This document shows positions 18,878 to 43,117 of a DNA stretch of 64,000 nucleotides, piece after piece (the first letter of the stretch is position 1; each line of letters begins with the position of its first letter). The notes under the pieces were generated by a model. It had not been told where the DNA came from and searched no databases. It saw only the letters and a program-made list of their open reading frames with translations. The DNA is taken from contig DAIDHW010000001.1 of assembly GCA_027451865.1 (NCBI GenBank), forward strand, positions 744,353-808,352, read 5' to 3'. A program made the translations under genes and the position numbers. The stretch is from Leptolyngbyaceae cyanobacterium clean351 (GTDB lineage: Bacteria > Cyanobacteriota > Cyanobacteriia > DAIDHW01).

Positions 18878-21800
18878 CCTTGAGGAGTGCCATCTAAGAG
18901 AACGCATTGTAGGTTTCAATCCCTGAAAGGGTTTAGGGGTAATTGTTGGATTCGGCGCCAGCAGGGCAGTATTTGGGGGGGAATCCATTTCAATCCCTGA
19001 AAGGGTTTAGGGGTAATTGTTGGGCCTTTTCCCCCGAGTACCCCTCCCCCGAAATTCTCGTTTCAATCCCTGAAAGGGTTTAGGGGTAATTGTTGGGGGT
19101 CCCGGCATTTATATTAAGCTTCGAATTGTCAGGTTTCAATCCCTGAAAGGGTTTAGGGGTAATTGTTGGGTTGGGTAAAGTCAGTAAAGGCGTCCTTGTA
19201 TCCGTTTCAATCCCTGAAAGGGTTTAGGGGTAATTGTTGGGCCGCCCCCACTGGAATTTTGCTGCTGGGAATTTGTTTCAATCCCTGAAAGGGTTTAGGG
19301 GTAATTGTTGGGGTTGGAAGCCTCATATGTATATAGATGTGCGAGGGGTTTCAATCCCTGAAAGGGTTTAGGGGTAATTGTTGGGCTAGCTCCAATTTAA
19401 GCTAAGATGGTGGTCGTTGTTTCAATCCCTGAAAGGGTTTAGGGGTAATTGTTGGGAGGGGGGAAGCTTTCCAAGGAATCCGTAAAGCTCAAGTTTCAAT
19501 CCCTGAAAGGGTTTAGGGGTAATTGTTGGGGGCTGGGCCACCAGGCTGCGGCGGTGGGTGATTGATAGGTTTCAATCCCTGAAAGGGTTTAGGGGTAATT
19601 GTTGGCCGGCTGATCGAGGGCTCGGTTCCCAGCTGGTTGCGGTTTCAATCCCTGAAAGGGTTTAGGGGTAATTGTTGGGGCCAAGTATCCAAAGCAGTGC
19701 AGTTTGATTACCTTGTTTCAATCCCTGAAAGGGTTTAGGGGTAATTGTTGGGGGGGCCTATCAGCGCGCGGCAACTAACAGTGGTACTGTTTCAATCCCT
19801 GAAAGGGTTTAGGGGTAATTGTTGGGGCCTTGTTGGCTGCAATCGGAGCGCAGACCAGCGGTTTCAATCCCTGAAAGGGTTTAGGGGTAATTGTTGGGGC
19901 TTAACCAGTACCAGGCGGATTCGGTTTGGGCAACGTTTCAATCCCTGAAAGGGTTTAGGGGTAATTGTTGGGTCTTTCTAAGGGCACTCAATCGCTGGAT
20001 CTGCCTGGTTTCAATCCCTGAAAGGGTTTAGGGGTAATTGTTGGGTGGGGATTGATATACGCGCTGAGAGCAAGTGCGATTGTTTCAATCCCTGAAAGGG
20101 TTTAGGGGTAATTGTTGGGCCAGGGGGTCTGGAAGCAAGGCTCCGGCAAATTATGGTTTCAATCCCTGAAAGGGTTTAGGGGTAATTGTTGGGCCCCCTG
20201 GCTCCATTGTGCCGTGCGGGGGGGGGGTTTCAATCCCTGAAAGGGTTTAGGGGTAATTGTTGGGAGGCGGTCTATGGGCTTGTTAGGCCGTGCGATTTGA
20301 GTTTCAATCCCTGAAAGGGTTTAGGGGTAATTGTTGGGGGGATTTTACAAAACTTTACAATAGCTGCTTGGCCCGTTTCAATCCCTGAAAGGGTTTAGGG
20401 GTAATTGTTGGGTGGTGTCGGCCAGAGCCCTAGCCCTAGCGTAGCTGAGTTTCAATCCCTGAAAGGGTTTAGGGGTAATTGTTGGGCTCCAATCGGGGGG
20501 CTTCCCATTCCCCGCTTCCGGTTTCAATCCCTGAAAGGGTTTAGGGGTAATTGTTGGGCCGGGATTTCCGGGACCCGTGGGCCCGTTCGATCCAGTTTCA
20601 ATCCCTGAAAGGGTTTAGGGGTAATTGTTGGGCCCCTGATAGCGAAGGGGGAAGCTGGCTAGGTAAGAGTTTCAATCCCTGAAAGGGTTTAGGGGTAATT
20701 GTTGGGGAAGCCTCCTGGGGGGGGCTTTTTTTTTGAGAGTATGTTTCAATCCCTGAAAGGGTTTAGGGGTAATTGTTGGGAGTAGTACGGTGCGGCCACC
20801 GCTACTGGCGCTGTACGTTTCAATCCCTGAAAGGGTTTAGGGGTAATTGTTGGGTTTGGGGATTTCCAGGTGCAGCTCATGGAAGTATTTGTTTCAATCC
20901 CTGAAAGGGTTTAGGGGTAATTGTTGGTAAGCGGAGAGCTCAAATTCTGGGATTTTCTCTTCGTTTCAATCCCTGAAAGGGTTTAGGGGTAATTGTTGGG
21001 CCGAATTGATTGTACCAGCAAACGCGTAATTTTTGTTTCAATCCCTGAAAGGGTTTAGGGGTAATTGTTGGGCCAGCTCCAAGGTACCTGGAAGCAAGGC
21101 TCGGGAAGTTTCAATCCCTGAAAGGGTTTAGGGGTAATTGTTGGGTAATCCCCTTCCCGGTACCGCTCAGCCAGCCCAGCCACCACAGGTTTCAATCCCT
21201 GAAAGGGTTTAGGGGTAATTGTTGGGCGATTCCCAACCCACAATTCAATCCGATCAGCCAAGTTTCAATCCCTGAAAGGGTTTAGGGGTAATTGTTGGGA
21301 CTGAGGCCCCAGCGATTGGCGTAAGTGGTCAGCCGTTTCAATCCCTGAAAGGGTTTAGGGGTAATTGTTGGGCCTGAATTCGGAGTCGCTCTTCCCAGGC
21401 AGCCAGGGTTTCAATCCCTGAAAGGGTTTAGGGGTAATTGTTGGGTCAATCCCCTAGTACAGCAGCAATCCCTTCCGGCAGTTTCAATCCCTGAAAGGGT
21501 TTAGGGGTAATTGTTGGGATTTGCGGCTGCCGGCATAACAGTATAGGGGGAGGTTTCAATCCCTGAAAGGGTTTAGGGGTAATTGTTGGGGGCGCTTCCC
21601 CCGCCAGGCTACCTATAATATTTGTGTTTCAATCCCTGAAAGGGTTTAGGGGTAATTGTTGGTATCTCTCCGGAGCCTTGTCCGGACTAATCGGCCTGTT
21701 TCAATCCCTGAAAGGGTTTAGGGGTAATTGTTGGGGCGGCAATCCCGCGGTGCCTGGATTCTCTCCCCCAGTTTCAATCCCTGAAAGGGTTTAGGGGTAA

Positions 21801-24800
21801 TTGTTGGGCTGAATCGGAAAAATCTTTATTTCCCCAGCCTCCTCGTTTCAATCCCTGAAAGGGTTTAGGGGTAATTGTTGGGCAATCTGGCTTGCCTTTT
21901 TGCTTGATAGGCGTAAATGTTTCAATCCCTGAAAGGGTTTAGGGGTAATTGTTGGGGGAGCCACGGGATGTAATCCAGGGCTTAGAGGCCGTATTTCAAT
22001 CCCTGAAAGGGTTTAGGGGTAATTGTTGGGAGATTGGGGTGTAGGGTGTCGCCATTCAAAAATTTATTTCAATCCCTGAAAGGGTTTAGGGGTAATTGTT
22101 GGGCTTTACAGGAAGTTAATCGCGGTGCCACCGTACCGATTTCAATCCCTGAAAGGGTTTAGGGGTAATTGTTGGGTCCCCCCGCACATCTATATAAAGG
22201 ACTCTCAAAATATTTCAATCCCTGAAAGGGTTTAGGGGTAATTGTTGGGCTTGAAATCGATTCAAATCCGTCGGCATGGAGCCAAATTTCAATCCCTGAA
22301 AGGGTTTGGGGGTAATTGTTGGGGAAGTTAGAGGATTGGGAAGCCTTTTTAGAGACCGAGTTTCAATCCCTGAAAGGGTTTGGGGGTAATTGTTGGGAAC
22401 ACTAGGGCCGCCTCGGCATTAAGAGCATTTCGGTTTCAATCCCTGAAAGGGTTTGGGGGTAATTGTTGGGGAGAGATGAGAAAGGCGCCTTTTGTCGCGC
22501 GAAAGGTTTCAATCCCTGAAAGGGTTTGGGGGTAATTGTTGGGTTTTCTTTTCTTTTCCGTATATACGTTTTCCGTAAAGTTTCAATCCCTGAAAGGGTT
22601 TGGGGGTAATTGTTGGGTTCTGCCGCTAAGCGGTAAAGGAGAGAAAAGTGAAGTTTCAATCCCTGAAAGGGTTTGGGGGTAATTGTTGGGGCTAAAGCTA
22701 CCTAAGGAAGAAAAGTTAAACATTTCTCGTTTCAATCCCTGAAAGGGTTTGGGGGTAATTGTTGGGTCACCCTCTTCCCTGTAGTCAAGCGGCATGATTT
22801 GTTTCAATCCCTGAAAGGGTTTGGGGGTAATTGTTGGGACAACCCTTCAGCAGGACAGGCAAATGCAAATGGTGTTTCAATCCCTGAAAGGGTTTGGGGG
22901 TAATTGTTGGGCACACCACCACCACACCACCGGTCACCCACCAGGGGTTTCAATCCCTGAAAGGGTTTGGGGGTAATTGTTGGGGATTCAGAAATCTCCC
23001 GAAAGGGGAGATAGGTTGGTTTCAATCCCTGAAAGGGTTTGGGGGTAATTGTTGGGCGCAACCAATGGTTGGAGCTCGTCTTCCCTTCTCAGTTTCAATC
23101 CCTGAAAGGGTTTGGGGGTAATTGTTGGGCAGACCCGGGAGAGGTCTCCCGAATCTCGATCTCGAGTTTCAATCCCTGAAAGGGTTTGGGGGTAATTGTT
23201 GGGGTTTTAACCCAAACCTCAACCTTCTTGACCACTTTGGTTTCAATCCCTGAAAGGGTTTGGGGGTAATTGTTGGGCGGGAAAGGGCAACTTTATGTCC
23301 AAAGTCCGCTATGTTTCAATCCCTGAAAGGGTTTGGGGGTAATTGTTGGGGTTCCAACACCGCCTTAAGGGTGAGGTCCTCTGCCGTTTCAATCCCTGAA
23401 AGGGTTTGGGGGTAATTGTTGGGGGGGAGATTCACACCCCTGGACAAATAGCCGTTTTGCCCGTTTCAATCCCTGAAAGGGTTTGGGGGTAATTGTTGGG
23501 GTTAGTAAAAAACTACGGGTTCTCGGCCACGTGTACGTTTCAATCCCTGAAAGGGTTTGGGGGTAATTGTTGGGCGGGAAAGGATTACCTCGGAACGGGT
23601 GAGGTCTGTGTTTCAATCCCTGAAAGGGTTTGGGGGTAATTGTTGGGGAGGAAGCGCCGCCAGAGGCTGCCCCTTTAGAAGGTTTCAATCCCTGAAAGGG
23701 TTTGGGGGTAATTGTTGGGTGGCAAGGTTGTTACCCTTAAGCCAATCCTTTATCGGTTTCAATCCCTGAAAGGGTTTGGGGGTAATTGTTGGGGTTTTGA
23801 GACGGAAATTACCCGCGACATCCAAGAAGGTTTCAATCCCTGAAAGGGTTTGGGGGTAATTGTTGGGTTTTTAGGATTTCTGAATAATCCAGGGAATCCC
23901 CTTGTTTCAATCCCTGAAAGGGTTTGGGGGTAATTGTTGGGTCCAAGGGCTCATAGGTTTAGGCTCCCATCCGGGTTGTTTCAATCCCTGAAAGGGTTTG
24001 GGGGTAATTGTTGGGCAGCGCATATACCAAGGTGCTGGCGTCTGCTAAGGCGTTTCAATCCCTGAAAGGGTTTGGGGGTAATTGTTGGGGGGGCGGACAA
24101 GCCGCCCCGTGGTTCTTAGAAAGGGTTTCAATCCCTGAAAGGGTTTGGGGGTAATTGTTGGGGCAACGCCGGTAAAGGGGCTCAAAATGGCCATCATTCC
24201 GTTTCAATCCCTGAAAGGGTTTGGGGGTAATTGTTGGGCTAGGGCAAAGTACCAACCACCCTTCCGGGTGGTCTGTTTCAATCCCTGAAAGGGTTTGGGG
24301 GTAATTGTTGGGGTACCTCGGTGATGTTACCCGGTTTCCCGGGTAGTGTGTTTCAATCCCTGAAAGGGTTTGGGGGTAATTGTTGGGTTGTTCCCCGCCT
24401 AGCTCAGCAGCAAGGAATTCGGCGTTTCAATCCCTGAAAGGGTTTGGGGGTAATTGTTGGGCTCTCCCTTCGCCGCCTAGCGGCTTGCTTATCGATGTTT
24501 CAATCCCTGAAAGGGTTTGGGGGTAATTGTTGGGGGACCACAGGGTCTTGGGTTCTTGGCCCTTAGCCCGTTTCAATCCCTGAAAGGGTTTGGGGGTAAT
24601 TGTTGGGGGCGTAATTGAGCAAGCTCTACCCCGTACTGGTTTGCGTTTCAATCCCTGAAAGGGTTTGGGGGTAATTGTTGGGCGTAGCAAGGAGACATCT
24701 ACTTCGTAGAGGGTTGCGTTTCAATCCCTGAAAGGGTTTGGGGGTAATTGTTGGGCCGGTCTGCCTCGTACTTGGCGATTACTTCGCGGTTTCAATCCCT

Positions 24801-24826
24801 GAAAGGGTTTGGGGGTAATTGTTGGG

Positions 24827-24857
24827 AAAAAAGAGGCCAGCCCCCCGGCTAGCCTCT
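24827..24857 (-). terminator. Intrinsic terminator carried inside a spacer
   Basis: Read on the transcribed (minus) strand, the spacer holds AGAGGC-T-AGCC, a GGGG loop and GGCT-G-GCCTCT, an 11-pair stem including one G-U wobble, followed at once by a run of T (24831-24827). This is a textbook rho-independent terminator in the direction of array transcription. It is the 16th spacer from the leader, so it could limit transcription of the 81 spacers beyond it. Confidence 0.7.
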
Positions 24858-25999
24858 AGAAAGTTTCAATCCCTGAAAGGGTTTGGGGGTAATTGTTGGG
24901 CTATTGCAAAAAAAATTACGCGTACAAAATATCCAGTTTCAATCCCTGAAAGGGTTTGGGGGTAATTGTTGGGCCTTTACCGGCATTTACCGGCTATTAT
25001 TTTACAGCGTTTCAATCCCTGAAAGGGTTTGGGGGTAATTGTTGGGACCAACCCTCAAACCTCTGCGAGAGCGTAGCCTTGCGTTTCAATCCCTGAAAGG
25101 GTTTGGGGGTAATTGTTGGGGCTGAGAGCCAGGGTTTCCGGTTTCCCGGTGCCCGTTTCAATCCCTGAAAGGGTTTGGGGGTAATTGTTGGGGTGGCCTG
25201 GCCATCTAGAATCAGGCTCTACACTCTCCGTTTCAATCCCTGAAAGGGTTTGGGGGTAATTGTTGGGCCCCACTTCTCTACCGGAGGTAGTATTGGAGGA
25301 GGTTTCAATCCCTGAAAGGGTTTGGGGGTAATTGTTGGGCCGGCGTTGCCGGCATAAAAACTACAGAATTTACAGCGTTTCAATCCCTGAAAGGGTTTGG
25401 GGGTAATTGTTGGGGGGGATTATTTACATGGTTGCGCCTACTATCAGCAAGTTTCAATCCCTGAAAGGGTTTGGGGGTAATTGTTGGGCGGCAGCCGAGT
25501 AGGGCTTACCCCTATTCGCTGTTGTTTCAATCCCTGAAAGGGTTTGGGGGTAATTGTTGGGTTTCATCCTGTTTTTCTCCTTTAATTACACTAACCGTTT
25601 CAATCCCTGAAAGGGTTTGGGGGTAATTGTTGGGAAACCGTTGTTAAGTTAGTAGGAAAACTACTGTGGTTTCAATCCCTGAAAGGGTTTGGGGGTAATT
25701 GTTGGGCTATAGGACTTCCACTTCCCATCCCAAGAACGGCAGTTTCAATCCCTGAAAGGGTTTGGGGGTAATTGTTGGGTTAAAAAATAGGCTCGCTAAC
25801 CCCGCCGGAAAATTCGTTTCAATCCCTGAAAGGGTTTGGGGGTAATTGTTGGGCCGGTGGGGAGTCCTTTACACCCTTTTTGATGGCGTTTCAATCCCTG
25901 AAAGGGTTTGGGGGTAATTGTTGGGGATCAAACTGTAGGGGTAATAAAAGCGGCTAAAAAAGTTTCAATCCCTGAAAGGGTTTGGGGGTAATTGTTGGG

Positions 26000-26248: not shown

Positions 26249-26253
26249 CTAGG
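26235..26253. repeat. Left copy of a 19-base repeat bracketing the cas genes
   Basis: TACCCATCCGCGCCCTAGG spans the stop codon of cas2. It recurs in direct orientation at 37245-37263 with one mismatch, just past the WYL regulator, so the two copies enclose the cas operon and its regulator. It may be a trace of how the block was inserted, or chance. Confidence 0.35.
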
Positions 26254-26521
26254 CAAAAAAGACTGTTTCATCTCGTACTGCCGTGCCTCCAATCCGTTCA
26301 ACCTTCGCCTGACAACAGGCACAAAGGAAATAAAACCGGACACTATCTTGCTCAGGCTTAATGAGGGCGCCCAAGCGGGATCTCAGCTTAGCGTATTGTG
26401 TCTCAGTTAAATCACACTCGAACACACTGTACTGCATCCACTGACCGTAAGACTTGAGAATATTATGGATTTTAGTACGGCGTTTGTCTTCGACGATATC
26501 ATAACTAATGACCACCTGCAT
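26249..26521 (-). CDS. cas2: CRISPR-associated endonuclease Cas2
   Basis: This 90-residue protein starts MQVVISYDIVEDKRRTKIH, with the Cas2 ferredoxin-like strand and conserved Asp at residue 8, then SYGQWMQYSVFECDL and SVRFYFLCACC. Cas2 dimers bridge Cas1 in the spacer-integration complex. It is the last gene of the cas operon, four bases after the cas1 stop, and borders the leader. Confidence 0.95.
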   Translation of the reverse strand: MQVVISYDIVEDKRRTKIHNILKSYGQWMQYSVFECDLTETQYAKLRSRLGALIKPEQDSVRFYFLCACCQAKVERIGGTAVRDETVFFA

Positions 26522-26525: not shown

Positions 26526-27530
26526 TTATTTGAGTACTAAGGGTGGATATTGGTCAATTTCGTGCATCAAGTACTTTGCTAGCAGCCGAGCCTGAATCTC
26601 AAAGGACTCTTGATAGGTGCACTGGGTTTGCATCACGGGATGCTTGAACTTTGACTGTTTTTTTAGCTCATAGGATCTTAAAAAAGTACGGATTCCTTCT
26701 GATGTGAGTGAAACCGCACCGCTTAATGGTTCAGTTGTAAAATCAGCGGGGACGATCGCCCGTTTATTTATACTGCTCAGTACTACGGCATCTACCACAA
26801 GGGGGCGAAATTCCTCCATCAAATCTAGCGCTAGAGATGCGCGACCATAACGCTGAGTATGGAGGTAGCCAAGATACGGGTCAAAGCCGACTAGATTCAA
26901 AGCGCTTTGAACATCATGGCGCAGGAGGGCATAGCCTAGGCTGAGGAGGGAATTCACCGGATCAGTAGGTGGGCGGCGTCTGCGGGCATCAAACTGAAAG
27001 CCATCAGCACGAATTAGGCTCGCAAAACTGCCGAAGTAGGCTGCACTACCCGCCCCCTCTAGGCCACGCAGGGAATCAATCTCTGTGCTAGTGTCAATGG
27101 GGGCAATTGCCTGCTCTAACCGAGATATCGCCTGATGTAGATCCAGGTCGGTTATTTCCCGTTGGGCTCGCAGGAGGCTGTGGCGATAGTTCTTGAGTTT
27201 GCCACGCACAAATCCGCGCACCACATGAGATGCTTGCATGGAAGGGGCCATGGCTTGCCACTGAGCACCACGTACAAAAATATTTTTGTTTAACTCTGGT
27301 TCAAGTCGTCCTAGATAACGCCCTGTCCAGGTGAGAAAGCTCAGGGGAATACGACGCTCTAGGAGCTCCATAACAACAGCGGGGGAAACCGTGGCGCGTC
27401 CCATAACGACTACCCCATCTATTTTGATCAGTGGGACATCCAGGAGCGTCTGTTTGTTGGCCCGTACCGTCAAGCGTTCATCGGTCTTGCCAATAAAGGC
27501 ATCTTCTTGAGTGATATATAGGGTGCCCAT
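26526..27530 (-). CDS. cas1: CRISPR-associated integrase Cas1
   Basis: This 334-residue Cas1 has the N-terminal beta domain (MGTLYITQEDAFIGKTDERL), the linker RRIPLSFLTWTGRYLGRL, the LEGAGSAAYFGSF motif with the first metal-binding Glu near residue 160, and RYGRASLALDLMEEFRPLVVD with the last active-site residues. With Cas2 it integrates new spacers next to the leader. The ATG has a pyrimidine-rich upstream region with no clear ribosome binding site, so coupling to cas4 or leaderless-type initiation is possible. Confidence 0.96.
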   Translation of the reverse strand: MGTLYITQEDAFIGKTDERLTVRANKQTLLDVPLIKIDGVVVMGRATVSPAVVMELLERRIPLSFLTWTGRYLGRLEPELNKNIFVRGAQWQAMAPSMQASHVVRGFVRGKLKNYRHSLLRAQREITDLDLHQAISRLEQAIAPIDTSTEIDSLRGLEGAGSAAYFGSFASLIRADGFQFDARRRRPPTDPVNSLLSLGYALLRHDVQSALNLVGFDPYLGYLHTQRYGRASLALDLMEEFRPLVVDAVVLSSINKRAIVPADFTTEPLSGAVSLTSEGIRTFLRSYELKKQSKFKHPVMQTQCTYQESFEIQARLLAKYLMHEIDQYPPLVLK

Positions 27531-27586: not shown

Positions 27587-28174
27587 CTAAATAGCTTCTA
27601 GATAACGCTTCATCTTCTCGGTAGCTTTGGGGAGGCACTGTTCATAGAGGCTACAGCCTTTACACCGGGGGCCGTAAATCGCAGGGGGCATTTTGCCGGT
27701 GTTGAGGATCTCCGTGATGGCAGCAATGGCCTCGATTGTCATTTGCCGTAGGGTGGCTGAAAGCTCTATGGGTTGACGCTGATGGGTTTGAGCATAGTAA
27801 ACATAACCGACCGGAACTGGGCTGCCGATCATTTCCTCCAGGCAAAGCGCCTGGGCACACACCTGCAAGGCATCATTATCAAACTCACCCCGTTTGCCTC
27901 GCTTGTACTCCACGGGCACCCAATGACCGTCGGTTTCTTCAATCAAGTCCGCCTTACCGATCAGTCTATAGCGCTCTGACTTGAGCCAGATGGCTCGGAT
28001 CTGCCAGGTCTCTTCCCGGTGACCCTCCCCTAGGGTGTGCACTCGCTCGTGGAGACTAGCCCCTTCGATAGTGTACTGATTATCCACAAAGCCATCTAAG
28101 CAAAACATGCGCCAGCAGCGATGGGGACAGTAGGCATATTGGTTAAGAGCAGCGATCGGAATGAGGTCATCCAT
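27587..28174 (-). CDS. cas4: Cas4 iron-sulfur nuclease
   Basis: This 195-residue RecB-family protein has an N-terminal cysteine in YAYCPHRCW, the nuclease motif VEYKRGKRG near residue 110, and the C-terminal cluster CKGCSLYEQC, which binds a 4Fe-4S cluster. Cas4 trims prespacers and checks the PAM before integration. The ATG at 28174 is chosen over an upstream one at 28237 because AGGAGG lies six to seven bases before it. It overlaps the end of cas6 by eight bases. Confidence 0.94.
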   Translation of the reverse strand: MDDLIPIAALNQYAYCPHRCWRMFCLDGFVDNQYTIEGASLHERVHTLGEGHREETWQIRAIWLKSERYRLIGKADLIEETDGHWVPVEYKRGKRGEFDNDALQVCAQALCLEEMIGSPVPVGYVYYAQTHQRQPIELSATLRQMTIEAIAAITEILNTGKMPPAIYGPRCKGCSLYEQCLPKATEKMKRYLEAI

Positions 28175-28997
28175 ATATCCTCCTAACCATCCCCATCCCC
28201 ATGGGTGTTTTCCTACCAACCCCCGCATAGAGGGCAAAATCTGCTAGGGTGTTTAGCTGCTTGATGACGGTGGGGTCTACGGGGTCTTCATCTCCTAGGA
28301 TGTGATAAGTAATCGTCCCCACACAACCGGCCCACTTGGATTTAGAGTCATTAGCAAGTTGGGTAAACAGGTCAAAACGACTACTAAATAACCATTGGCT
28401 CAGGGTCTCGGGAAACGGGATCCCACTGTAGTGATTCCAGCGTTTTAGCAAACTGTTGAATACACACTCGCGCGTGGGCAGCGCCGAGTCGTGCCGGCCC
28501 TGGCGGAAGGTGGCGGGAGTATAAAACCTCAAGGTTAAAGAGTGACAATTATCGGAGGCTTGGTCATACAAGTCCTTGTAGGAACAGTAATTAGCCCAGG
28601 GCTGGGTTGATTGGGCTGTACCTAAAACACTGGTGATGTGGAGGTCAGCAGGACCGAGATGCCAGGGGTGTCCAGGGTTAAGCTGCAACCAGAGGGGTGT
28701 CAGGTGCCTGAACAGGGTCTCATCTAGTAAAGATATCCGCCACCAACAGGGGGTCTGGGGTGGGATCGGCTGCTTGTATTCCCATTGGAGGGTGTGGCCT
28801 GGGGGAGTATAGTCACTCCTTTGTAAGGGGCTGATTGTAAAGGCTTTCTCAGTAGTTTGTTCATGGAGTTGATTGCCTAAGTTCTGATCTACTGAGCTCA
28901 CCAGGGTCAAAAACAGAGCATGGAGGTGTTTACCAGTTAAGTAGCCTGGCTGGATCGTGGTTGCCGGTAAGAGGTTAAGGACTAGGGTGTGGGGCAT
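28167..28997 (-). CDS. cas6: CRISPR RNA endonuclease Cas6
   Basis: This 276-residue protein ends in LADFALYAGVGRKTPMGMGM, the glycine-rich RNA-binding loop of Cas6, and has two RAMP-like halves. It should cut each repeat on the 3' side of the CCCT/AGGG hairpin and leave the eight-base handle ATTGAAAC. It lies 129 bases after cas3, a gap with no gene that could hold a second promoter for cas6-cas4-cas1-cas2; its stop overlaps cas4. Confidence 0.93.
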   Translation of the reverse strand: MPHTLVLNLLPATTIQPGYLTGKHLHALFLTLVSSVDQNLGNQLHEQTTEKAFTISPLQRSDYTPPGHTLQWEYKQPIPPQTPCWWRISLLDETLFRHLTPLWLQLNPGHPWHLGPADLHITSVLGTAQSTQPWANYCSYKDLYDQASDNCHSLTLRFYTPATFRQGRHDSALPTRECVFNSLLKRWNHYSGIPFPETLSQWLFSSRFDLFTQLANDSKSKWAGCVGTITYHILGDEDPVDPTVIKQLNTLADFALYAGVGRKTPMGMGMVRRIYG

Positions 28998-29126: not shown

Positions 29127-31844
29127 TCAATCTGAGTTCAGAGGTTTTACATATGTAATAATCACTGATTTATCAGGTTTATTGTGCTTGCATAGTAGCT
29201 TCTTATTAAAGTCATTAGTCTTAATATCGATAAGTACGCCAGGTAAGTCCACAAAGCCAAACTCAGGATCATAGTTATAATCAGCCGTCATTCCATCAAA
29301 TGTCATGACACTCTGGTGATTAGGTGATACCTTGACAAGAATATCTTTTGAGTAAGCAGAACCAAAGGTTAATGAGCACTCTTTCCAGCATGTAGCTTCC
29401 TGATCGTAGAACCTTTCCAGTACATAAGTGTTTGCATACTGATTATTTTGATTTTGGATGAGACGATCAAGTGGCACAGTAATTTGTGGTGGATTCTTAT
29501 CCCCATTTTCATAAATCAATGTTGCTGATGGTGTCCAACTTCGTGTGACTACCAAGCCGTTCTTATAGGTAGGTTCACAGGTTAGATCGGCCCCATATAT
29601 ATAATCATGGAGCATTGAAAATAGTTCTACGACCCGATAGTCATCAATGTGTCGTGGACGTGAAATACATCTGCCAACTGCTTTGGTATCAAACACTGAC
29701 ATGGACTGAAGTGTTGATCGATAAGTTTGCCATCCGGACGCATCTAGGCTGTTAGTAAAATCGGGAATAAGATCACCCATTAAGATAACTTTAGCATCGT
29801 GTACATCGCCTCTACGATTACACCGTCCAGCTCGTTGGATGAGATTCTCAGGTGGGCAGATCTGAGATATCAATACCTCTGCGTTCAGATCACAGCCGAC
29901 CTCGATTGCACTGGTAGTTACCAGGACATATGGTATCTTAAGTTCATCAAACTTCTTAACTTGTTTATAAAGTTCCGGCTGGAGATTGTCTGCAATACGA
30001 CCATGATATAGAAACAGATTCTGACGATCAAGTTTCTCCTTAAGCAGTCTGTAGATGGCGGCAGCATCGACAACGGTTTCAACAACGACCAAAATTCTGC
30101 GATGTCCCTCGTGTTGGTTCCATTCATGAATAATTCGCTGCGCAAAAGCTTCATGAAATCCTTTAGGAGACTCACTATTTCGTCGTAAGTCACATATCCA
30201 CTCAAAACCACGGCAGTTGAGATAGGGATGACTTAGATACTGGGGTTGATTTAGACTTCCGGACTTTTCAGGGTCGTCGATGAAGTCGATCAAGTCTAGA
30301 TATCCGAAACTTTTAGTCAGTTCTTGTGGCATTGTTGCCGTCATTAGCACAAGTGACCGCCCTGCTTCGTAAAGTGATTGCACTAGGCTTCGAAAGTTTG
30401 TGAATGAGATATCATCATAGCTATGAGCCTCATCAAAGCAAATCAGTGAGTTACTGAAGTGAATACGATGAGGGAAGATAAAAGATTTTTGCTTATCTCC
30501 GAATGAGAAGTAACGATAGAGAAACTTATCGAGGGTAGTTAATATGACGTCGCCTTTATATAAATGTCTCCTGGGGTTAACCTTAGGCCTATGACATTCA
30601 CCATTAATATAGATGCACCGATCCATCGTGGCTCCAGTATCGACAACCAAGGAAATTTCGCTGTCGTAATTGGATGCCAAGCCAGAGAAAGCAAGTAGAT
30701 ATTTGTCAATTCTTTCTCTTTGATCATCAAGTAAGCTTCGGGTCGGCAAAACCAGAAATAAACGATAGTTGTTTGCTAAAGCAGGAAACAAAACTGACTC
30801 GGTCTTACCAGAACCAGTAGGTGCCTTTAACAAAATAGCTGGATGATTGTCTGGAGTCAATGCATTAATGAGCACCTGCTGCATTGAGTTAGGTAAAAAT
30901 TTCCCAACTGATTCATAGACTGTTTGAGCTCTAATATTTTTTGGTGGATCACCAGACCGTTGTCTAATAAGAATCGCTTCTTTTTTAGATCTTTTAAGAT
31001 TCTCGGCATCAGTCCGGGTCTGCCACAGAGTCTGCCACCATTCACGCACAGCTTGATTTAGATCGTTCGTTAAAGCTTTACTATTTTTGGAACGATTTTC
31101 AATCGCGGACTTGATTTTGGGTGGGAACGGCATTGACCAATAGGAAAGCGTTAGCTCAATTTGCTCAATCTGTTGGTGACTATTACTAAATACCCAGGGA
31201 TCTACTGTAAATTCGTGACCATTTCTTGTGATACTGAAATCCATGAAGGCCCTGGATTCAGCATGGCTTGATTCAGGTTCAAAGAACCTACAAGCAATGT
31301 CTGCTTCGATTTGGTCACACATCTCTAGAATGTATAGTTCATGGGCATAGGATAGTGGATTTACCACAAGAGCTTGTTGGTATGCTACGGCTTGCTGAGC
31401 CAGTGGGTCAGCTTTGTCAAGCTTATCAGCTAGAGTCTTTAGTTTATAGGTATCTCGGCAGATATCATGGGCACTAAAGTCATGATGCCCCTGGGCCAGT
31501 GCTTCTACCCAAGGGTGACTCGGATCTACTGCCAGAAAACGATGACCCTTAAAGGAGTAGCCAAAATTAATCTTACCACACGCAGATATATCGATGTTTA
31601 GAGCAAATTTCTGTGGTTTCCCAATATCATGCAGACCCGCAGCGGCAGAGACTCTTTTGCGGGCTGCCATTCGCTCACTCTCAGTCTTGGAAAAGTCTAT
31701 TAAAGCCCAGTATTGGACAAGCTTTCTAACATTTGAAACATGGTTACCAAGGGGCTGGAAAAGAATACTTTCAGGTATTGAAAGTTCATCTTTTCTGGGA
31801 AAAAATACACGGCCAAAATCAAAGGGTTTAGACACAGACTTCAC
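29127..31844 (-). CDS. cas3: Cas3 with both HD nuclease and helicase domains
   Basis: This 905-residue protein has an N-terminal HD nuclease domain: H35, H72-D73 in GLHDIGKP, H101, H120-H121 in QGHHDF and D177 in EMCDQIEADI. A superfamily 2 helicase follows, with APTGSGKTE (341-349), CFDEAH (469-474), MTATMP (501-506) and QRAGRCNRRG (670-679). It would unwind and degrade target DNA after Cascade binding. In standard type I-D systems Cas3 is helicase-only and the HD lies in Cas10d; here it is reversed. The start overlaps the end of csc1 by 17 bases, and the gene follows csc1 rather than leading the operon. Confidence 0.93.
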   Translation of the reverse strand: MKSVSKPFDFGRVFFPRKDELSIPESILFQPLGNHVSNVRKLVQYWALIDFSKTESERMAARKRVSAAAGLHDIGKPQKFALNIDISACGKINFGYSFKGHRFLAVDPSHPWVEALAQGHHDFSAHDICRDTYKLKTLADKLDKADPLAQQAVAYQQALVVNPLSYAHELYILEMCDQIEADIACRFFEPESSHAESRAFMDFSITRNGHEFTVDPWVFSNSHQQIEQIELTLSYWSMPFPPKIKSAIENRSKNSKALTNDLNQAVREWWQTLWQTRTDAENLKRSKKEAILIRQRSGDPPKNIRAQTVYESVGKFLPNSMQQVLINALTPDNHPAILLKAPTGSGKTESVLFPALANNYRLFLVLPTRSLLDDQRERIDKYLLAFSGLASNYDSEISLVVDTGATMDRCIYINGECHRPKVNPRRHLYKGDVILTTLDKFLYRYFSFGDKQKSFIFPHRIHFSNSLICFDEAHSYDDISFTNFRSLVQSLYEAGRSLVLMTATMPQELTKSFGYLDLIDFIDDPEKSGSLNQPQYLSHPYLNCRGFEWICDLRRNSESPKGFHEAFAQRIIHEWNQHEGHRRILVVVETVVDAAAIYRLLKEKLDRQNLFLYHGRIADNLQPELYKQVKKFDELKIPYVLVTTSAIEVGCDLNAEVLISQICPPENLIQRAGRCNRRGDVHDAKVILMGDLIPDFTNSLDASGWQTYRSTLQSMSVFDTKAVGRCISRPRHIDDYRVVELFSMLHDYIYGADLTCEPTYKNGLVVTRSWTPSATLIYENGDKNPPQITVPLDRLIQNQNNQYANTYVLERFYDQEATCWKECSLTFGSAYSKDILVKVSPNHQSVMTFDGMTADYNYDPEFGFVDLPGVLIDIKTNDFNKKLLCKHNKPDKSVIITYVKPLNSD

Positions 31845-32652
31845 CTCTCAAGAGATTAACAAGGGACACAGGAAGATATATTTCTCCATCTGTGTAGTAG
31901 TCTAGTTCTACTGACTGTTTACTTGACTTCGGGAAATAAGCTGCTACAAAAGGGACAAATCCATCTACGATTGTGGGATTAGAATCTAAGAAGCCAGCAT
32001 GGTCAGAACCAATCTGAGGAGTGTCGGCCCACTGGTAACGATAGAGACTATAGATGTCGCAACCGCCTGCAAACTGACTGCCCTGAAGTAAGTCTTCCAT
32101 CGGAATCAGAGTTGAGGGATGGGCAGCGACCCTCTGACGTTCTAGAGCAATCACTTTAGATACTCCGGTGACAACTGCAAACCCCTCTTTACCACACTTG
32201 CATCCAAAACATTCCAAACTCTGAAAAAGTTCCAGTCCTTCCGGGTGATCTGTTATGACATATCCTTCCAACTCATCGGCGATTAAATACTCCCAGGTGT
32301 GGAGCTGAAAGTTAGCTCCCTTATCTTCTTGATAAAGCCTAGAGAAAGAATCGTGATTAAATTCTCGCATCCCTTTGCGATAGGTACGATGTACTCCACT
32401 CCAGGTCCTTATTGTTGGATATGCACCCAGGGCTAAATAGTGAGGAGGTAAGGCATACGTCGGCGGGTTTTCATCGTTAACACAAGTTCCAGGAAGTTCT
32501 AGCCCAATACTCATCATGACTAGCCTTCTTAAGAAACCAGAGAAGGTCGTTGGTGGCACAAAAGGATAGGTAGCAATATTGAGGATCGACCCCGGCAAAA
32601 TGCGGAAGGTCATCGCTGCGGTGGGTTGGACAGTGAGTTTTAGGCAGTACAT
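31828..32652 (-). CDS. csc1: Type I-D Cascade subunit Csc1 (Cas5d-like)
   Basis: This 274-residue RAMP protein has the Csc1 pattern: an N-terminal strand MYCLKLTVQPTAAMTFRI, YPFVPPTTFSGFLRRLVM, TYALPPHYLALGAYPTIRTW and the late YFPKSSKQ region. It plays the Cas5 role, capping the 5' handle of the crRNA in Cascade. It starts three bases after the csc2 stop and overlaps cas3 at its end. It is slightly longer than most Csc1 proteins I know, without an obvious extra domain. Confidence 0.92.
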   Translation of the reverse strand: MYCLKLTVQPTAAMTFRILPGSILNIATYPFVPPTTFSGFLRRLVMMSIGLELPGTCVNDENPPTYALPPHYLALGAYPTIRTWSGVHRTYRKGMREFNHDSFSRLYQEDKGANFQLHTWEYLIADELEGYVITDHPEGLELFQSLECFGCKCGKEGFAVVTGVSKVIALERQRVAAHPSTLIPMEDLLQGSQFAGGCDIYSLYRYQWADTPQIGSDHAGFLDSNPTIVDGFVPFVAAYFPKSSKQSVELDYYTDGEIYLPVSLVNLLRGEVCV

Positions 32653-32655
32653 AAC

Positions 32656-33564
32656 TTATGCCTGTAAAACTTCTTGGACAAATTTACTAGAATACTCCTG
32701 CAGTTTCTCCAATGCAGCATCGCCAATCCAACGCTCAAAATGAGATGCTTCTATGTGATCAGAGTTCAGCTCCGGAGTCCTAGCAAGGCGGATGAAGTCA
32801 TTAATCGCCGTTTCTGGGTTGGTGACAGACGGTGAGACGATAGGACGTTTGCCTTTGGGGACTAAGTAACGATCAACGACAAGCAGAGGCATGTTGTCAT
32901 GGGCTTCCGCGATGGATATACCCTTGGGATTTCCTGAGCCAATACGTGGTAGTGCATCCAGGAAAGCATAGGCGACTGATGCGAACTCCTTATCAGTCAC
33001 GCTCAGTGCATGATTGGACACAGGATAGAGAATTCCAGGCTGGTTGTATTGACGCTTAAAAGGCATTGGTGTTTTCTCCTTTTGGTTAACTAGTTGTGCC
33101 GGGTGCATTGCCCGTTGCTTCTCAACTGGGTAAATGTCTTGAACCGCAACACCACCACCATGAGTTACTCGACCAATCAGGGTTTTCTTACCTGGTATTA
33201 ACCCACCATAAGGAGCACATATGGGGCAGGTTGGCAGCGAACAAGTTTCAGGGATGCCGCAACCTTGCTTGTCACCCAGTAAACTGCCATTTTTTACAGG
33301 TGCCCAGATCAGGCAGCGTCGCTCGACACCACGCCTCTTGGTGGGAGAGATGTAACACTTTTCTATAGATTTGCCATCCTTAGTTGAGAGCTTGACAATC
33401 TCAACGAGGTTCACATTAACCTGTACTTCATGCCCCAAATAAAGCTCCTGCGAGCCCTCTAGCATCGCATAGATGTCAAAGTGCATTCGGGGGTTTTTTA
33501 TGTCTTTAGGAAGCCCAGTAGTCACTTGGGGCTTCTCTGTAGTTTCGGGAGATTTAGTAGTCAT
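32656..33564 (-). CDS. csc2: Type I-D Cascade backbone Csc2 (Cas7d)
   Basis: This 302-residue protein is the crRNA-coating Cas7 subunit of type I-D. Visible landmarks are YAMLEGSQELYLGHEVQVNV, KRRGVERRCLIWAP, a four-cysteine insertion (CGIPETCSLPTCPIC) likely to bind zinc, and the glycine-rich PRIGSGNPKGIS segment. Several copies polymerise along the spacer part of the crRNA. Its ATG shares one base with the cas10d stop codon (TAATG), implying coupled translation. Confidence 0.94.
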   Translation of the reverse strand: MTTKSPETTEKPQVTTGLPKDIKNPRMHFDIYAMLEGSQELYLGHEVQVNVNLVEIVKLSTKDGKSIEKCYISPTKRRGVERRCLIWAPVKNGSLLGDKQGCGIPETCSLPTCPICAPYGGLIPGKKTLIGRVTHGGGVAVQDIYPVEKQRAMHPAQLVNQKEKTPMPFKRQYNQPGILYPVSNHALSVTDKEFASVAYAFLDALPRIGSGNPKGISIAEAHDNMPLLVVDRYLVPKGKRPIVSPSVTNPETAINDFIRLARTPELNSDHIEASHFERWIGDAALEKLQEYSSKFVQEVLQA

Positions 33565-34079
33565 TAGTCTGTCTCACTTGTGGATTTCAATTTGCGAACC
33601 AACTCGGGGAAGCGGGTATAGAGAGAGAGTTTGAGGTTGTATGTCAGTTCCTTCCAGTCTCTCTCTTGGGCATAATCTCTAGTTGCAAAGTGCTGATATG
33701 CACGTGAAATATCATCAGCATAAAACTGCAGATAAGGCCTACCTCCATTATCCTTATCCTCCCTTTCCCGATCAAAAATACTTAGTTCAGTCAATAAGGT
33801 TTTCGCATGACTGTAAATGAAGTCACAGCTAGGGTTATGATATAGCCTTGCCTCGACACTAGTTTTCTGCTCATCACCCAGGGTGGCATAATAACTGAAG
33901 GCGATCGCATCATCAACTTTCTCAATTAACTTGCTAACTTCGCGTTCAGCATTTTCCTGATTCATTGAATTTTTAGCGGTCTTCTCTAGAGATTGGGCGA
34001 AAGCATAGGTTAAGCCCGTCAGTGCTGCAACATCACGATACAATCTAGCTCGTTTGGGTAGTTGGTTGTTTGAATCCAC
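33564..34079 (-). CDS. Predicted internally translated small subunit Cas11d
   Basis: Inside cas10d, in frame, a GTG codon at 34079 (residue 655 of Cas10d) is preceded by AAGGAG with five bases between, a near-perfect ribosome binding site. The product would be 171 residues, starting MDSNNQLPKRARLYRDV, all helical and matching the C-terminal domain of Cas10d. Type I-D systems are known to make Cas11d by internal initiation at this kind of site. A second in-frame candidate is the ATG at 34244, which has AAGGA seven bases before it and would give 226 residues. Expression has not been shown. Confidence 0.6.
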   Translation of the reverse strand: MDSNNQLPKRARLYRDVAALTGLTYAFAQSLEKTAKNSMNQENAEREVSKLIEKVDDAIAFSYYATLGDEQKTSVEARLYHNPSCDFIYSHAKTLLTELSIFDREREDKDNGGRPYLQFYADDISRAYQHFATRDYAQERDWKELTYNLKLSLYTRFPELVRKLKSTSETD

Positions 34080-36041
34080 AGTTTCTCCTTGTCGTTGTAA
34101 ATCTTGATTTAGAGCCTTCCAGTAAGATTGACGGACCTGCTCTAATTTAAAATTATTCGAAAAACTTGAACCCTTAGCGAGGATATAAATGGCTAGGAAG
34201 GGCAGATCCTGCTGCACATATCGAACAGCATCACCCAAAGCCATATTGATGTCCTTACCAGATATCACGATCGACTGCCCATAGCAAACCATCAAACCCT
34301 TAACTAAAAGCAGGTGTCGGTTCAGAAGAAGTACCTGAGAACCCTGGATAACTAGTGAGAACTTAAAGTCTGCTAACACTTCACCAGGGAAAATAGAAGC
34401 GACTTTAGCTAATGCATACTGCACCTGTCCTAATTTTGTGGATGCACAATCACCTTTAGCCGTGCGGTCTGACACCAATATCAAATAGCGGCCGGCACTC
34501 AGATGTACCTCCTTATTAGTAAGCATTCTGAGGTAATCCTTAATTTTTAACCCGGAGGTTACTCTGCTATCACTCGGGTCAAGTCTTATCATGACACTCT
34601 CTTCTGATACTTTCAGTGGCGAAGCAAGAGCCAATGCGGAACAGGAGTGACAAATGTGCGGTCTACCTTCCCCTGAAGATGACTGACGACGCTGGGAAGG
34701 GCGTTCAAACATGAAACGCAGAACTTGCCAGCGTGCTTTCTTAGGATCAAGAACAATACCACAAGAGTAACAAAACTCTTTACTATCATCTCCAGGTGCC
34801 CTCAGCCCTGGCAAGATAGGCTCCTCTGTCAGTAACGGTCTCGGCAATTGATCAAACTGTTCAGGCTTAATCTCTAGAAGGCGATACATCTCAGACAGGC
34901 ACTTGATGAAAATATCACCACGTGTTGAGTTAATCTGATCCGTAGCTGTTCTATTAAATTTCTTGGCGACAGTGATGACGGACTGGTATTTCTCTGGGTT
35001 ATTTTCTATATCGATGCGAATGAACTGGAATGGGTTATCCTTAGACTGATCGATAATCTCCAGTTTTTGTTTCACAGACTTCCGTTCAAAAACTAGTCCT
35101 GAGCAAAGCTTATTTTTTTGGTTTAAAAGTTTTTTTTGCTCAGCTTTCATTACCTCTGGTCTGGCTAATTGAGCATTTAGGCGGTCAAGTTCTTCATATG
35201 TATCTGCATGATTGCGAAGGGTGGTAATAAATGATTTTCTAAAAGATTCCTGATACTTCCCGGCTTCCTTTTCCTGCATGGCCTGAAGTTCTCGAAGCTC
35301 TTTAGACTTAGTTTTCTGTTCCTTCTCATCTAAGTCGTGTTTCTCAAGCTCCCTGTTAAGCAGATCAATTTCAGACTGGCGTCTAGCTTGACGTTTTTCC
35401 ACATCCCTAATTACCGCGTAGTACCAAGCTGTAAGTACATCAGCTTGTTCTTGTGTTAAAATTGGTACATCCAATGTGCTAAACCCACGATCTGATAAGG
35501 TAATTCCATTCAGAATCGCAACGAAAGTTTGCACTAAGCCAGGTAATTGAAGCTCACTCTTGCCATATACAGAGAATGCAACTTGCTCTAGAAACTCCTG
35601 CCAGAGTGTTGCAAAATCATTGATTGGTTGCTTGGGAGTGAAAATCCTGACATGACGGTCGCTCTCCTCAAGTAATACAACCTGATATACCTTCTGCAAA
35701 TATTCTAGGAAGCGGTCAGTAGCACTTTCTGTCGCTAGTCGTGCCTGTAACTCACCAGGTATTGGCAGTTTATACAGGATGTGGATTTTGCCAATGATTT
35801 GCTTCTGATAAAGAACTTGGCCTTTATCGCCTGTTTCAACTGTTGGCCAAAACTCCTTAACATCAGATTTTCCACTAAGTCGTAGCAGCCGGATCAATTT
35901 TGGGGAGCCAAATGATTGTGCCAATGCTAGAGCATCTGGTTCCTTAGCTAGTACTGCAAAAAGCTCTTTCTTGTGCTCCAGTGCAATGTCTGCAGCTAAA
36001 GCACTAACTAAAATCCTGATTTTGGAAGACCAGCTAAGCAT
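33564..36041 (-). CDS. csc3: Type I-D large subunit Cas10d (Csc3) lacking the HD domain
   Basis: This 825-residue protein is recognised as Csc3/Cas10d by its zinc-finger cysteines at 424, 427, 464 and 467 (FCYSCG and HICHSCS), the following palm-like segment and the helical C-terminus. Unlike standard Cas10d it has no N-terminal HD motifs and is shorter than those I know (about 950-1,180 residues). Residues 212-334 form a long charged coiled coil with no counterpart I can name. No GGDD cyclase motif is present, as expected for Cas10d. It should recognise the PAM and hold Cascade together; nuclease activity must come from Cas3. It is the first gene of the operon. Confidence 0.9.
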   Translation of the reverse strand: MLSWSSKIRILVSALAADIALEHKKELFAVLAKEPDALALAQSFGSPKLIRLLRLSGKSDVKEFWPTVETGDKGQVLYQKQIIGKIHILYKLPIPGELQARLATESATDRFLEYLQKVYQVVLLEESDRHVRIFTPKQPINDFATLWQEFLEQVAFSVYGKSELQLPGLVQTFVAILNGITLSDRGFSTLDVPILTQEQADVLTAWYYAVIRDVEKRQARRQSEIDLLNRELEKHDLDEKEQKTKSKELRELQAMQEKEAGKYQESFRKSFITTLRNHADTYEELDRLNAQLARPEVMKAEQKKLLNQKNKLCSGLVFERKSVKQKLEIIDQSKDNPFQFIRIDIENNPEKYQSVITVAKKFNRTATDQINSTRGDIFIKCLSEMYRLLEIKPEQFDQLPRPLLTEEPILPGLRAPGDDSKEFCYSCGIVLDPKKARWQVLRFMFERPSQRRQSSSGEGRPHICHSCSALALASPLKVSEESVMIRLDPSDSRVTSGLKIKDYLRMLTNKEVHLSAGRYLILVSDRTAKGDCASTKLGQVQYALAKVASIFPGEVLADFKFSLVIQGSQVLLLNRHLLLVKGLMVCYGQSIVISGKDINMALGDAVRYVQQDLPFLAIYILAKGSSFSNNFKLEQVRQSYWKALNQDLQRQGETVDSNNQLPKRARLYRDVAALTGLTYAFAQSLEKTAKNSMNQENAEREVSKLIEKVDDAIAFSYYATLGDEQKTSVEARLYHNPSCDFIYSHAKTLLTELSIFDREREDKDNGGRPYLQFYADDISRAYQHFATRDYAQERDWKELTYNLKLSLYTRFPELVRKLKSTSETD

Positions 36042-36300
36042 TTGATGTTTCTTGGTAGAGTCCCACCAACCATTAAGTGACTAAGTCTCCAGCCTGGAAC
36101 GATGGCGATGTCCAAACTTCTAAACAAGCTCACCGACAGGATGCCGATACCATCAAATGGTATAAGCAAATCTCTCTAGCCAGGATGGTTCGGCAGTAGG
36201 TTAGGCCTATAATTTGTCCGTAAACCGTTGCTAATATCCATATTGCCATGGAAAATGGAGGATGACAAGATACTTACGGATAAAGTGTCCGTATACTTCC
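36042..36300. promoter_or_regulatory. Divergent control region of the cas operon and its WYL regulator
   Basis: This 259-base region drives cas10d to the left and the WYL gene to the right. It holds ATACCA-TCAAA-TGGTAT (36147-36163) and TACGGA-N7-TCCGTA (36275-36293), both perfect six-base dyads, plus a third TCCGTA half-site at 36217-36222. The second dyad lies just before the WYL start codon and is a good candidate for self-repression. Binding is inferred, not shown. Confidence 0.5.
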
Positions 36301-37155
36301 ATGAGCCGTAAAGGACACTCGATTACCCTTTCCATCAATGAGCGGGACAAAGCCCAACTCGAGCAGATCGCCATGGAGCAGGGGATGATGTGGGGTGACC
36401 GCCCTAACATCTCCCGCTTAGTAGAGGCGATCGCCCGCCATGAACTATTGATCGGACGTAACAACGATTGGTCTAAAGAGAGGATCACAGCGGTGTGGCA
36501 GGCAGCTCAAGCACTACAGGACGCAGGCTGTACTGATGCTGCACTTATTATGGCTGGGCTTTTGCAAGAGCGCAGTGAATTACCAAATCCCTTAAGAAAA
36601 CAGGTCAATGCCTTCCTCAACACCCCCCAGATCCCCTGGCGCACTGAGGTCGACCGGCATATTCGCCAGCAGGTGCCCTTCCAGTTAACCTATCGGGATG
36701 CTACTGACCGCTCCTGGACCTTTAGGATCCGCCATGCCCGCAATACCTTCCGGGAAAGGCGCCAATACCTGGAATGCTGGTGTGAAGAAACCGAGGGTAA
36801 CCAGGATCTACCGGAGTTGCAGCACAACTGGACACTACGGTTTGACCGTATCCCTGAGGCCGCCTTGGCACCGATCCAGGGGGCTTGGCGCCCTCACCTC
36901 GACACGATTGATGCTGAAATCCATCTCCTAGGTAGCCTAGCCTTCGCCTATCAAGCCAAAACTGAAGACAGACTCGACCAATGGCTCACTGACCCCCCTA
37001 ACCTCCGCCGGGTTGTGCGCCCCATTTCTAACAGCTTCTGGTTCTTCCGGGAGATTCTCCCCTACGGTGAAGATTGTATCCTGGTGGGTCCTGCGGAATT
37101 GCGGTCCCGCTTTATCGCCAAACTGCGGACCTTAACTAGAAACTATGAACTATAG
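36301..37155 (+). CDS. CRISPR-linked WYL-domain transcriptional regulator
   Basis: This 284-residue protein begins MSRKGHSITLSINERDKAQL, a ribbon-helix-helix-like DNA-binding start, and has a central to C-terminal WYL-type domain (PFQLTYRDATDRSWTFRIRHA). Proteins of this type sit next to type I-D loci in cyanobacteria; the Synechocystis example (Sll7009) represses its cas operon and crRNA. The ATG at 36301 is preferred over an upstream one at 36262 because it starts the conserved region and leaves the TACGGA/TCCGTA dyad upstream. GCGATCGC (HIP1) lies inside the gene at 36427. Confidence 0.82.
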   Translation: MSRKGHSITLSINERDKAQLEQIAMEQGMMWGDRPNISRLVEAIARHELLIGRNNDWSKERITAVWQAAQALQDAGCTDAALIMAGLLQERSELPNPLRKQVNAFLNTPQIPWRTEVDRHIRQQVPFQLTYRDATDRSWTFRIRHARNTFRERRQYLECWCEETEGNQDLPELQHNWTLRFDRIPEAALAPIQGAWRPHLDTIDAEIHLLGSLAFAYQAKTEDRLDQWLTDPPNLRRVVRPISNSFWFFREILPYGEDCILVGPAELRSRFIAKLRTLTRNYEL

Positions 37156-37244
37156 TCGAATCGACAACTAAACTAAAGCATAAATATCTCGACAGTCAGG
37201 ATAATACCCCCCGACCAAGACAGTAGTGCTTAGCCAGAGGGCAT

Positions 37245-37263
37245 TACCCATCCGCCCCCTAGG
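37245..37263. repeat. Right copy of the 19-base repeat bracketing the cas genes
   Basis: TACCCATCCGCCCCCTAGG matches the sequence at 26235-26253 in the same orientation with one mismatch. It lies between the WYL regulator and the stop codon of ndhJ, exactly at the change from the cas block to the core genome. Confidence 0.35.
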
Positions 37264-37271
37264 AACTGACC

Positions 37272-37787
37272 CTAGTGGGCATCCTGCAGCTCATAGAAGT
37301 CAGGGGAAATGTAGTCCTTGCGCAGGGGCCAGCCCACCCAATCCTCCGGCATCAGCAATCGCTTCAGATGAGGATGGCCCTCGTAGATGATCCCGAACAT
37401 ATCGTAGGACTCCCGCTCCTGCCAATCGGCTCCCTTCCACAACCAGTAGACAGAGGGGATCCGGGGATTTTCCCGGGGTAGGAAGACCTTGACCCGCACC
37501 TCCTGAGGGCGTTCAGCTGTTTCCTGGAGGCAGACTAAGTGGTAGAAACTGACTAACTCCTGCCCAGCCCCTAGGTCGTAGGCGCCTTGGCACTGGAGGT
37601 AGTTGAAGCCGTAGGCCGCCAGAGCGGTCATGACCGGGATCAGAAATTCCCCTGACACCTTGAGGATTTCTACCCCCAGGTGGTCACGGCCGAGGAACTC
37701 ATGGTCAAAGCCATTGTCCCGCAGCCACGTGGAGACAGGACCAGCCTTCGGCAACAGGGGACTTATTTCAGGAGTAGGATCAACCAC
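37272..37787 (-). CDS. ndhJ: NAD(P)H-quinone oxidoreductase subunit J
   Basis: This 171-residue subunit of the NDH-1 peripheral arm has [33 protein letters not shown] and the family signature [14 protein letters not shown], followed by [20 protein letters not shown]. It works in cyclic electron flow and respiration at the thylakoid membrane. The GTG at 37787 is chosen because GGAGG lies just upstream and the start then overlaps the ndhK stop by eight bases; an upstream start at 37829 would run deep into ndhK. Confidence 0.95.
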
Positions 37788-38876: not shown

Positions 38877-38945
38877 TATAGGAGCTAGGGTCGGTCCTGT
38901 CCGGCAAATTAGGATTGCCGGTGCCTATAGATAGGATTGGCATCC

Positions 38946-42178: not shown

Positions 42179-42227
42179 TCCGCACCTCCTGGCCTGAAGT
42201 TGTGTCTCTATTACTAGTCTCTAGCCT

Positions 42228-43020: not shown

Positions 43021-43051
43021 AGGGGGGCGGGGAGGGCGGTGGCTGGTCTTG

Positions 43052-43068
43052 AGCTACCCGGGGTAGCT
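43052..43068. repeat. Palindrome between gcvH and ycf36
   Basis: AGCTACC-CGG-GGTAGCT is a seven-base perfect inverted repeat with a three-base centre, lying midway in the 97-base divergent region between gcvH and the Ycf36-like gene. It could be an operator for either gene. Confidence 0.35.
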
Positions 43069-43117
43069 GGCCTATGATCGTCTCTACCTACGATACAACA
43101 CTGGAAGGCTAAGCACT

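Follow-up and report, generated by a model that had tools for sequence, protein, structure and literature searches.

The window, by which we mean the whole 64,000-nucleotide stretch of DNA analysed, contains a type I CRISPR-Cas locus whose effector and adaptation genes all lie on the minus strand (Table 1). They are transcribed in the order LS-cas7-cas5-cas3-cas6-cas4-cas1-cas2, LS being the large subunit, and the CRISPR array follows; a WYL regulator gene diverges from them on the plus strand. The source genome (2.48 Mb, 48 contigs) yielded no canonical Cas10d in a whole-genome search with TIGR03174. In the same genome, a second locus (C12, ~37115-44655) encodes an HD-Cas3 and a Cas1 whose open frame of 568 aa may represent a Cas4-Cas1 fusion; contig C1 bears a third cas1 gene (1034483-1035376). 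Elsewhere in the window, the end of a DnaE open frame (38946-41525) resembles the N-half of a split intein, of a type known in cyanobacteria. A CRISPR-associated transposon was considered and found unsupported: the locus has cas1, cas2, cas4 and a long array, and none of the open reading frames listed around it was recognised as a transposon gene.

Table 1. Features of the CRISPR-Cas locus, in window coordinates
Feature	Position	Strand	Evidence and remarks
Large subunit (LS), 825 aa	33564..36041	-	PADLOC PDLC01527 'Cas8b CAS-I-B', 1024 bits
Cas11-like small subunit, predicted internal translation in LS gene, 171 aa, GTG start	33564..34079	-	Start signal; inference
AGGAG ribosome-binding site of the internal LS start	34085..34089	-	
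Cas7 backbone subunit, 302 aa	32656..33564	-	PADLOC PDLC01388 'Cas7b CAS-I-B', 442 bits
Cas5 subunit, 274 aa	31828..32652	-	PADLOC PDLC01389 'Cas5b CAS-I-B', 366 bits
Cas3, 905 aa, N-terminal HD nuclease and C-terminal DExH helicase	29127..31844	-	
Cas3 HD domain region, residues 1-255	31080..31844	-	H35, H72, D73, K76, H101, H120, H121, D177 invariant
Cas6 crRNA endoribonuclease, I-D type (Cas6d)	28167..28997	-	PADLOC PDLC02042, 445 bits
Cas4, I-D type	27587..28237	-	Listed ORF start; real start probably ~20 codons in
Cas1, I-D type	26526..27530	-	TIGR04093, 426 bits, above cut-off
Cas2	26249..26521	-	
CRISPR array, 96 spacers	18912..25999	-	Repeat in crRNA sense (C)CCAACAATTACCCCCAAACCCTTTCAGGGATTGAAAC, 3' hairpin, handle ATTGAAAC, I-D-like
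WYL-domain regulator, divergent	36262..37155	+	Close homologues head most I-B-type and I-D loci

The first-pass annotation had taken this for a type I-D locus in which the HD nuclease had moved from Cas10d to Cas3. Its description of Cas3 was confirmed: the open reading frame carries a full HD motif set before the helicase, and all 22 cyanobacterial relatives in our alignment share H35, H72-D73, K76, H101, H120-H121 and D177. The HD motifs of Thermus Cas3 equal those of the window protein. This set and order of residues is what we take to be the metal site of Cas3 enzymes such as Thermobifida fusca Cas3. Profile searches did return matches at the N-terminus, at low significance (Pfam HD, E 0.22; TIGR00277 HDIG, E 0.02); a whole-genome search with the PF18019 profile did not pick up the Cas3 HD, and in profile comparison with other Cas3 HD domains the match was confined to the vicinity of the HD motif (prob 53). 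Because the profile matches are weak, the HD assignment rests on motif order and conservation. Compared with the Cas10d HD profile, the window HD scored a prob of 0.3, but the control, an ordinary Cas3 HD against the Cas10d HD, was also without a match, and the comparison is hence silent on descent of the domain. Cas3 is a single protein with HD fused to helicase, as in the I-B group of Thermus and PDLC01527.

The other half of the description, a large subunit without HD, likewise stood. No HD pair is conserved in LS residues 1-340, where D109 and H130 are the only well-conserved histidine or aspartate residues in the alignment. Further along, a CxxC...CxxC zinc motif (C424, C427, C464, C467) precedes a palm-like beta-alpha-beta-beta-alpha-beta region. 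The AlphaFold2 model of LS had a pLDDT of 85 and a pTM of 0.78. Its top Foldseek match in the PDB was the I-D Cas10d 7sba_I, a weak one (E 0.02, prob 0.82, TM 0.27-0.29), and among the matches listed no other exceeded prob 0.28. To that extent the predicted structure leans, weakly, towards Cas10d and speaks for the first-pass annotation; sequence and profile comparisons show no similarity to Cas10d. From the model, LS appears to have a Cas10-like plan, with N-terminal RRM-like strands, the zinc motif, the palm-like region and a helical C-terminus, and its (S/A)G-x-Y residues probably occupy the position of GGDD in active Cas10. Such a plan need not mean I-D, since a Cas10-derived origin has been proposed for most type I large subunits, which have the pattern in common (Makarova et al. 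2011, PMC3150331). A sequence search with LS matched no PDB chain, solved Cas8b included; the zinc region of Thermus LS gave a marginal match (E 0.001) to a different Cas8b model. Most likely, LS serves for binding and as a scaffold, its palm having decayed and a nuclease being absent.

Near LS residue 655, a Shine-Dalgarno-like AGGA(G) or GGAG followed by ATG or GTG is present in 19 of 24 relatives, Thermus among them. Translation from this internal start is predicted to yield a Cas11-like protein, some 150-195 aa long, of the kind found in types I-D, I-B and I-C.

The subtype of the effector is easily mistaken. Three of the four effector genes lack a Pfam or NCBIfam model and are therefore named 'hypothetical' in RefSeq; beside a 'type I-D' Cas1d, they make the locus resemble a rewired I-D system. 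LS, Cas7 and Cas5 indeed have no credible NCBIfam or Pfam match, which accounts for their misnaming. PADLOC matched all three, over their full length, to the CAS-I-B families PDLC01527, PDLC01388 and PDLC01389, and the LS, Cas7 and Cas5 of Thermus HB8 match the same models at 1017, 473 and 465 bits. A PADLOC Cas7d match in the window was marginal (E 0.005), and the I-B Cas7 and Cas5 models were assigned instead. An AlphaFold2 model of Cas7 reached a pLDDT of 34, its input alignment being too uniform.

As an I-D reference we aligned Cas10d, Csc2, Csc1 and Cas3' from 16 canonical cyanobacterial loci and compared profiles. By hhalign, the probabilities were 0.4 percent for LS against Cas10d, 0.6 percent for Cas7 against Csc2 and 0.6 percent for Cas5 against Csc1, which speaks strongly against the Csc1-Csc2-Cas10d Cascade proposed in the first-pass annotation. 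The sole effector region that matched I-D was the Cas3 helicase (against Cas3', hhalign 99 percent, E 6e-22), and the best PADLOC match of Cas3 is the Cas3d helicase profile. Cas10d keeps H103, H144, D145, K148 and D238 in all 16 reference loci, and Cas3' has no HD motif in any of them; the norm that the annotation had named, HD in Cas10d and a bare-helicase Cas3, therefore holds in this sample, and the window layout is no common I-D layout. The position of cas3 behind the gene in the 'csc1' place is, as had been remarked, unusual relative to canonical I-D.

The remainder of the locus is of I-D type. Cas1 passes the cut-off of TIGR04093 (type I-D), Cas6 and Cas4 match Cas6d and Cas4d, and the WYL regulator is close to I-D ones; with the Cas6d model, window Cas6 scores 445 bits versus 67 for Thermus Cas6. 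In their repeats, I-B-type loci are similar to a variety of I-D loci; for instance, an I-B-type Picosynechococcus repeat and that of an I-D locus (L072) differ by one mismatch. The reading as type I-D thus holds for Cas1, Cas6, Cas4, WYL and repeats, and fails for LS, Cas7 and Cas5, which belong to families filed as I-B. We consider it very probable that the locus is a hybrid, a Thermus/cyanobacterial I-B-type LS-cas7-cas5-cas3 set joined to I-D-type cas6-cas4-cas1-cas2, repeats and WYL regulator. The annotation was right in what it observed and mostly wrong in interpreting it as I-D, an interpretation that found partial support overall; the hybrid reading corrects a tempting misreading of the locus as rewired I-D.

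Among 386 genomes sampled from the phylum, 6, counting the source genome, had LS at a high score; Cas10d was found in 26 of 146. A scan of GTDB genomes gave 23 LS loci, all cyanobacterial but one, in a metagenome-assembled genome labelled Syntrophomonadaceae and perhaps misbinned. Every sufficiently complete locus among them keeps the order LS-cas7-cas5-cas3-cas6-cas4-cas1-cas2, most with the divergent WYL gene. The annotation had suggested looking for this order elsewhere; it is identical in 20+ loci, which rules out a local rearrangement or an assembly artefact, and with the layout fixed in these cyanobacterial loci and in Thermus there was no local move of HD. A plasmid search found LS in Picosynechococcus (2 records) and Thermus (15), and in Thermus too all four effector genes occur together. 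One further match to LS (G279, E 5e-4) was rejected as an unrelated coiled-coil protein.

The closest named system is that of Thermus thermophilus HB8 and HB27 on pTT27 (TTH_RS11130-RS11155, TT_RS11105-RS11130), assigned to subtype I-B in two papers (PMC10989782, PMC7515739). It has the LS, Cas7, Cas5 and full-HD Cas3 that match the same models, as well as the internal small-subunit start, in the order WYL-LS-cas7-cas5-cas3-cas6. It differs in protein sequence (~33% identity; LS is ~33% identical when aligned over 89%), in a Cas6 that is not strongly Cas6d-like, in divergent cas4-cas1-cas2 and in a repeat unlike that of the window. Copies of the repeat that PMC10989782 assigns to HB27 I-B lie to either side of the Thermus locus (21 matches), and the HB27 system interferes with plasmids in vivo, using a TTC PAM and leaving deletions near the target site (PMC10989782). 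The annotation of the older HB27 record NC_005838 (L115:12728-15177) splits the I-B cas3 into two overlapping frames, but newer HB27 records give a single uninterrupted match, which points to a sequencing error in the older one. Since Thermus I-B has the same effector set and layout, HD in Cas3 is standard in a system already known to work. The window locus is another member of a known effector family, for which HD in Cas3 is the fixed, normal layout. The label 'I-B' reflects the curators' filing, and the subtype name could be revised, the predicted LS fold being nearest, weakly, to Cas10d. Synechocystis PCC 6714 I-B (PDB 8H67) is comparable in its HD-Cas3, nuclease-free Cas8 and internal-start Cas11 (PMC11096372), but its Cas8b, of about 70 kDa, has no sequence match to LS.

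Going by family knowledge and the Thermus work, the system in the source organism would operate as follows. Cas6 would cut array transcripts at the hairpin adjoining the ATTGAAAC handle, and LS, Cas7, Cas5 and copies of the internally translated Cas11-like LS fragment would assemble on the crRNA as Cascade. Upon PAM recognition and R-loop formation, Cascade would recruit Cas3, whose HD domain would nick and degrade the displaced strand while the helicase moves. Searches of phage records with the window array and with three related ones, and of IMG/VR with four recent spacers, yielded neither protospacers nor a PAM; the phage matches were phage-borne CRISPR-like repeats. Cyanophages carrying repeats similar to those of these loci include Microcystis phage LMM01 (~35763-35941), which has an annotated 56 bp repeat unit, and Nostoc phages N1 and YongM.

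A true I-D variant, with HD transferred from Cas10d to Cas3' inside the I-D lineage, would account for an HD in Cas3 and none in LS, for I-D-type Cas1, Cas6, Cas4 and repeats, for the 7sba_I match at the top of the LS list and for the Cas3d profile as best match of Cas3. We regard it as very unlikely, given that LS, Cas7 and Cas5 have no similarity to Cas10d, Csc2 and Csc1 detectable by hmmscan or hhalign, that the four effector genes travel as a unit reaching as far as Thermus, and that all 16 canonical loci carry HD in Cas10d and not in Cas3'. The lack of a match between the Cas3 and Cas10d HD profiles also counts against it, with the reservation that the control comparison matched no better. 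An inactive enzyme is more improbable still: weak HD profile matches, and activity that in cyanobacterial members is a prediction, would permit a Cas3 whose HD is present but catalytically dead, in a locus that only silences its targets, yet the metal-site residues are all invariant in 22 of 22 relatives and in Thermus, where in vivo the I-B system interferes with plasmids and produces deletions close to its target (PMC10989782).

The deeper ancestry of LS is a separate matter. An evolutionary model reviewed in PMC10212523 (Fig. 7) has a transition from Cas10d-like to Cas8-type large subunits, and predicts a Cas10-fold large subunit that lacks HD beside a complete Cas3; the window family, whose HD-less large subunit may have such a fold, might be a relic or offshoot of it. 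This is compatible with the hybrid locus, as it concerns deep ancestry only. The predicted RRM-like strands, the CxxC-CxxC zinc motif, the palm-like region with AGxY-type residues at the GGDD place, the helical C-terminus with its internal Cas11 start and the weak top match to 7sba_I would all fit. We nonetheless think it rather unlikely: with most type I large subunits proposed to be Cas10-derived (PMC3150331), LS need not be special, 7sba_I is a weak match, and these data do not show which way the change went. Study of the LS family may clarify how Cas10d and Cas8 are related.

The hybrid composition of the locus has parallels across cyanobacteria. Loci of the Synechocystis PCC 6803 I-D type (L067-L082) share WYL, Cas6, Cas4, Cas1, Cas2, repeat and handle with the I-B-type loci, and their large subunit too contains an internal start for Cas11 and, going by the predicted LS structure, may be remotely similar in fold; they differ in that Cas10d (about 970-1170 aa) carries the HD, Cas3' (about 670-775 aa) is a helicase only, and Csc2 and Csc1 are unrelated to window Cas7 and Cas5. 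Trees of Cas6 and of Cas1 mix I-B-type with I-D loci as much as shuffled labels would (11 vs 11.5 and 9 vs 8.4 changes, respectively). The combined Cas6, Cas4 and Cas1 tree required 9 changes, at least 5 of them forced by starred branches, and rejected a single clade for I-B-type loci (AU test, p-AU 1.8e-43). That cyanobacteria swapped I-B-type and I-D effector cassettes several times is, judged from these comparisons, well supported as to the exchange itself.

The clearest pair is Picosynechococcus PCC 73109 (I-B type, L114:8937-15878) and an I-D locus (L072:5011-12995). At the DNA level, identity is 92% through the WYL gene, up to a point just short of the first effector gene, and 88.5% on the other side, where it resumes 2 bases ahead of cas6; between these flanks there is no match, a 6.9 kb I-B-type cassette facing an 8.0 kb I-D cassette. 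With flanks ~90% identical that end at gene boundaries, this is a clean cassette replacement, and the pair L009/L082 shows the same pattern. Other strains hold both types. Nostoc CHAB 5824 (L017:1-16878) has the end of Cas3', Cas10d, Csc2 and Csc1 upstream of an I-B-type cassette, with one cas6-cas4-cas1-cas2 set in that stretch, and Prochloron sp. (L022:9896-22460) has Cas3' and part of Cas10d downstream of one.

Shuffling of effectors in situ is already recognised as a trend (PMC12669027), and PMC10212523 mentions that I-D effector genes are shuffled next to conserved cas6 and adaptation genes; our literature search, partial in coverage, found no paper on I-D/I-B cassette exchange. As in the shuffling of Cas9, closely related adaptation genes stand beside unrelated effectors (PMC12669027), but in the cyanobacterial case a whole multi-gene class 1 cassette swaps between two subtypes. 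A single cyanobacterial guide platform (repeat, Cas6, Cas4-Cas1-Cas2 and WYL) may serve unrelated I-D and I-B-type complexes, by replacement in place and in some strains in tandem, with shared crRNAs and PAM; we hold this to have slightly less than an even chance of being right, and that both complexes draw on a single crRNA pool at the same time is its hypothetical part. These cyanobacterial loci clearly illustrate the exchange of an entire class 1 effector cassette between subtypes that have their guide platform in common, and with them one can test whether a given set of crRNAs, and one PAM, can be used by two different Cascades.
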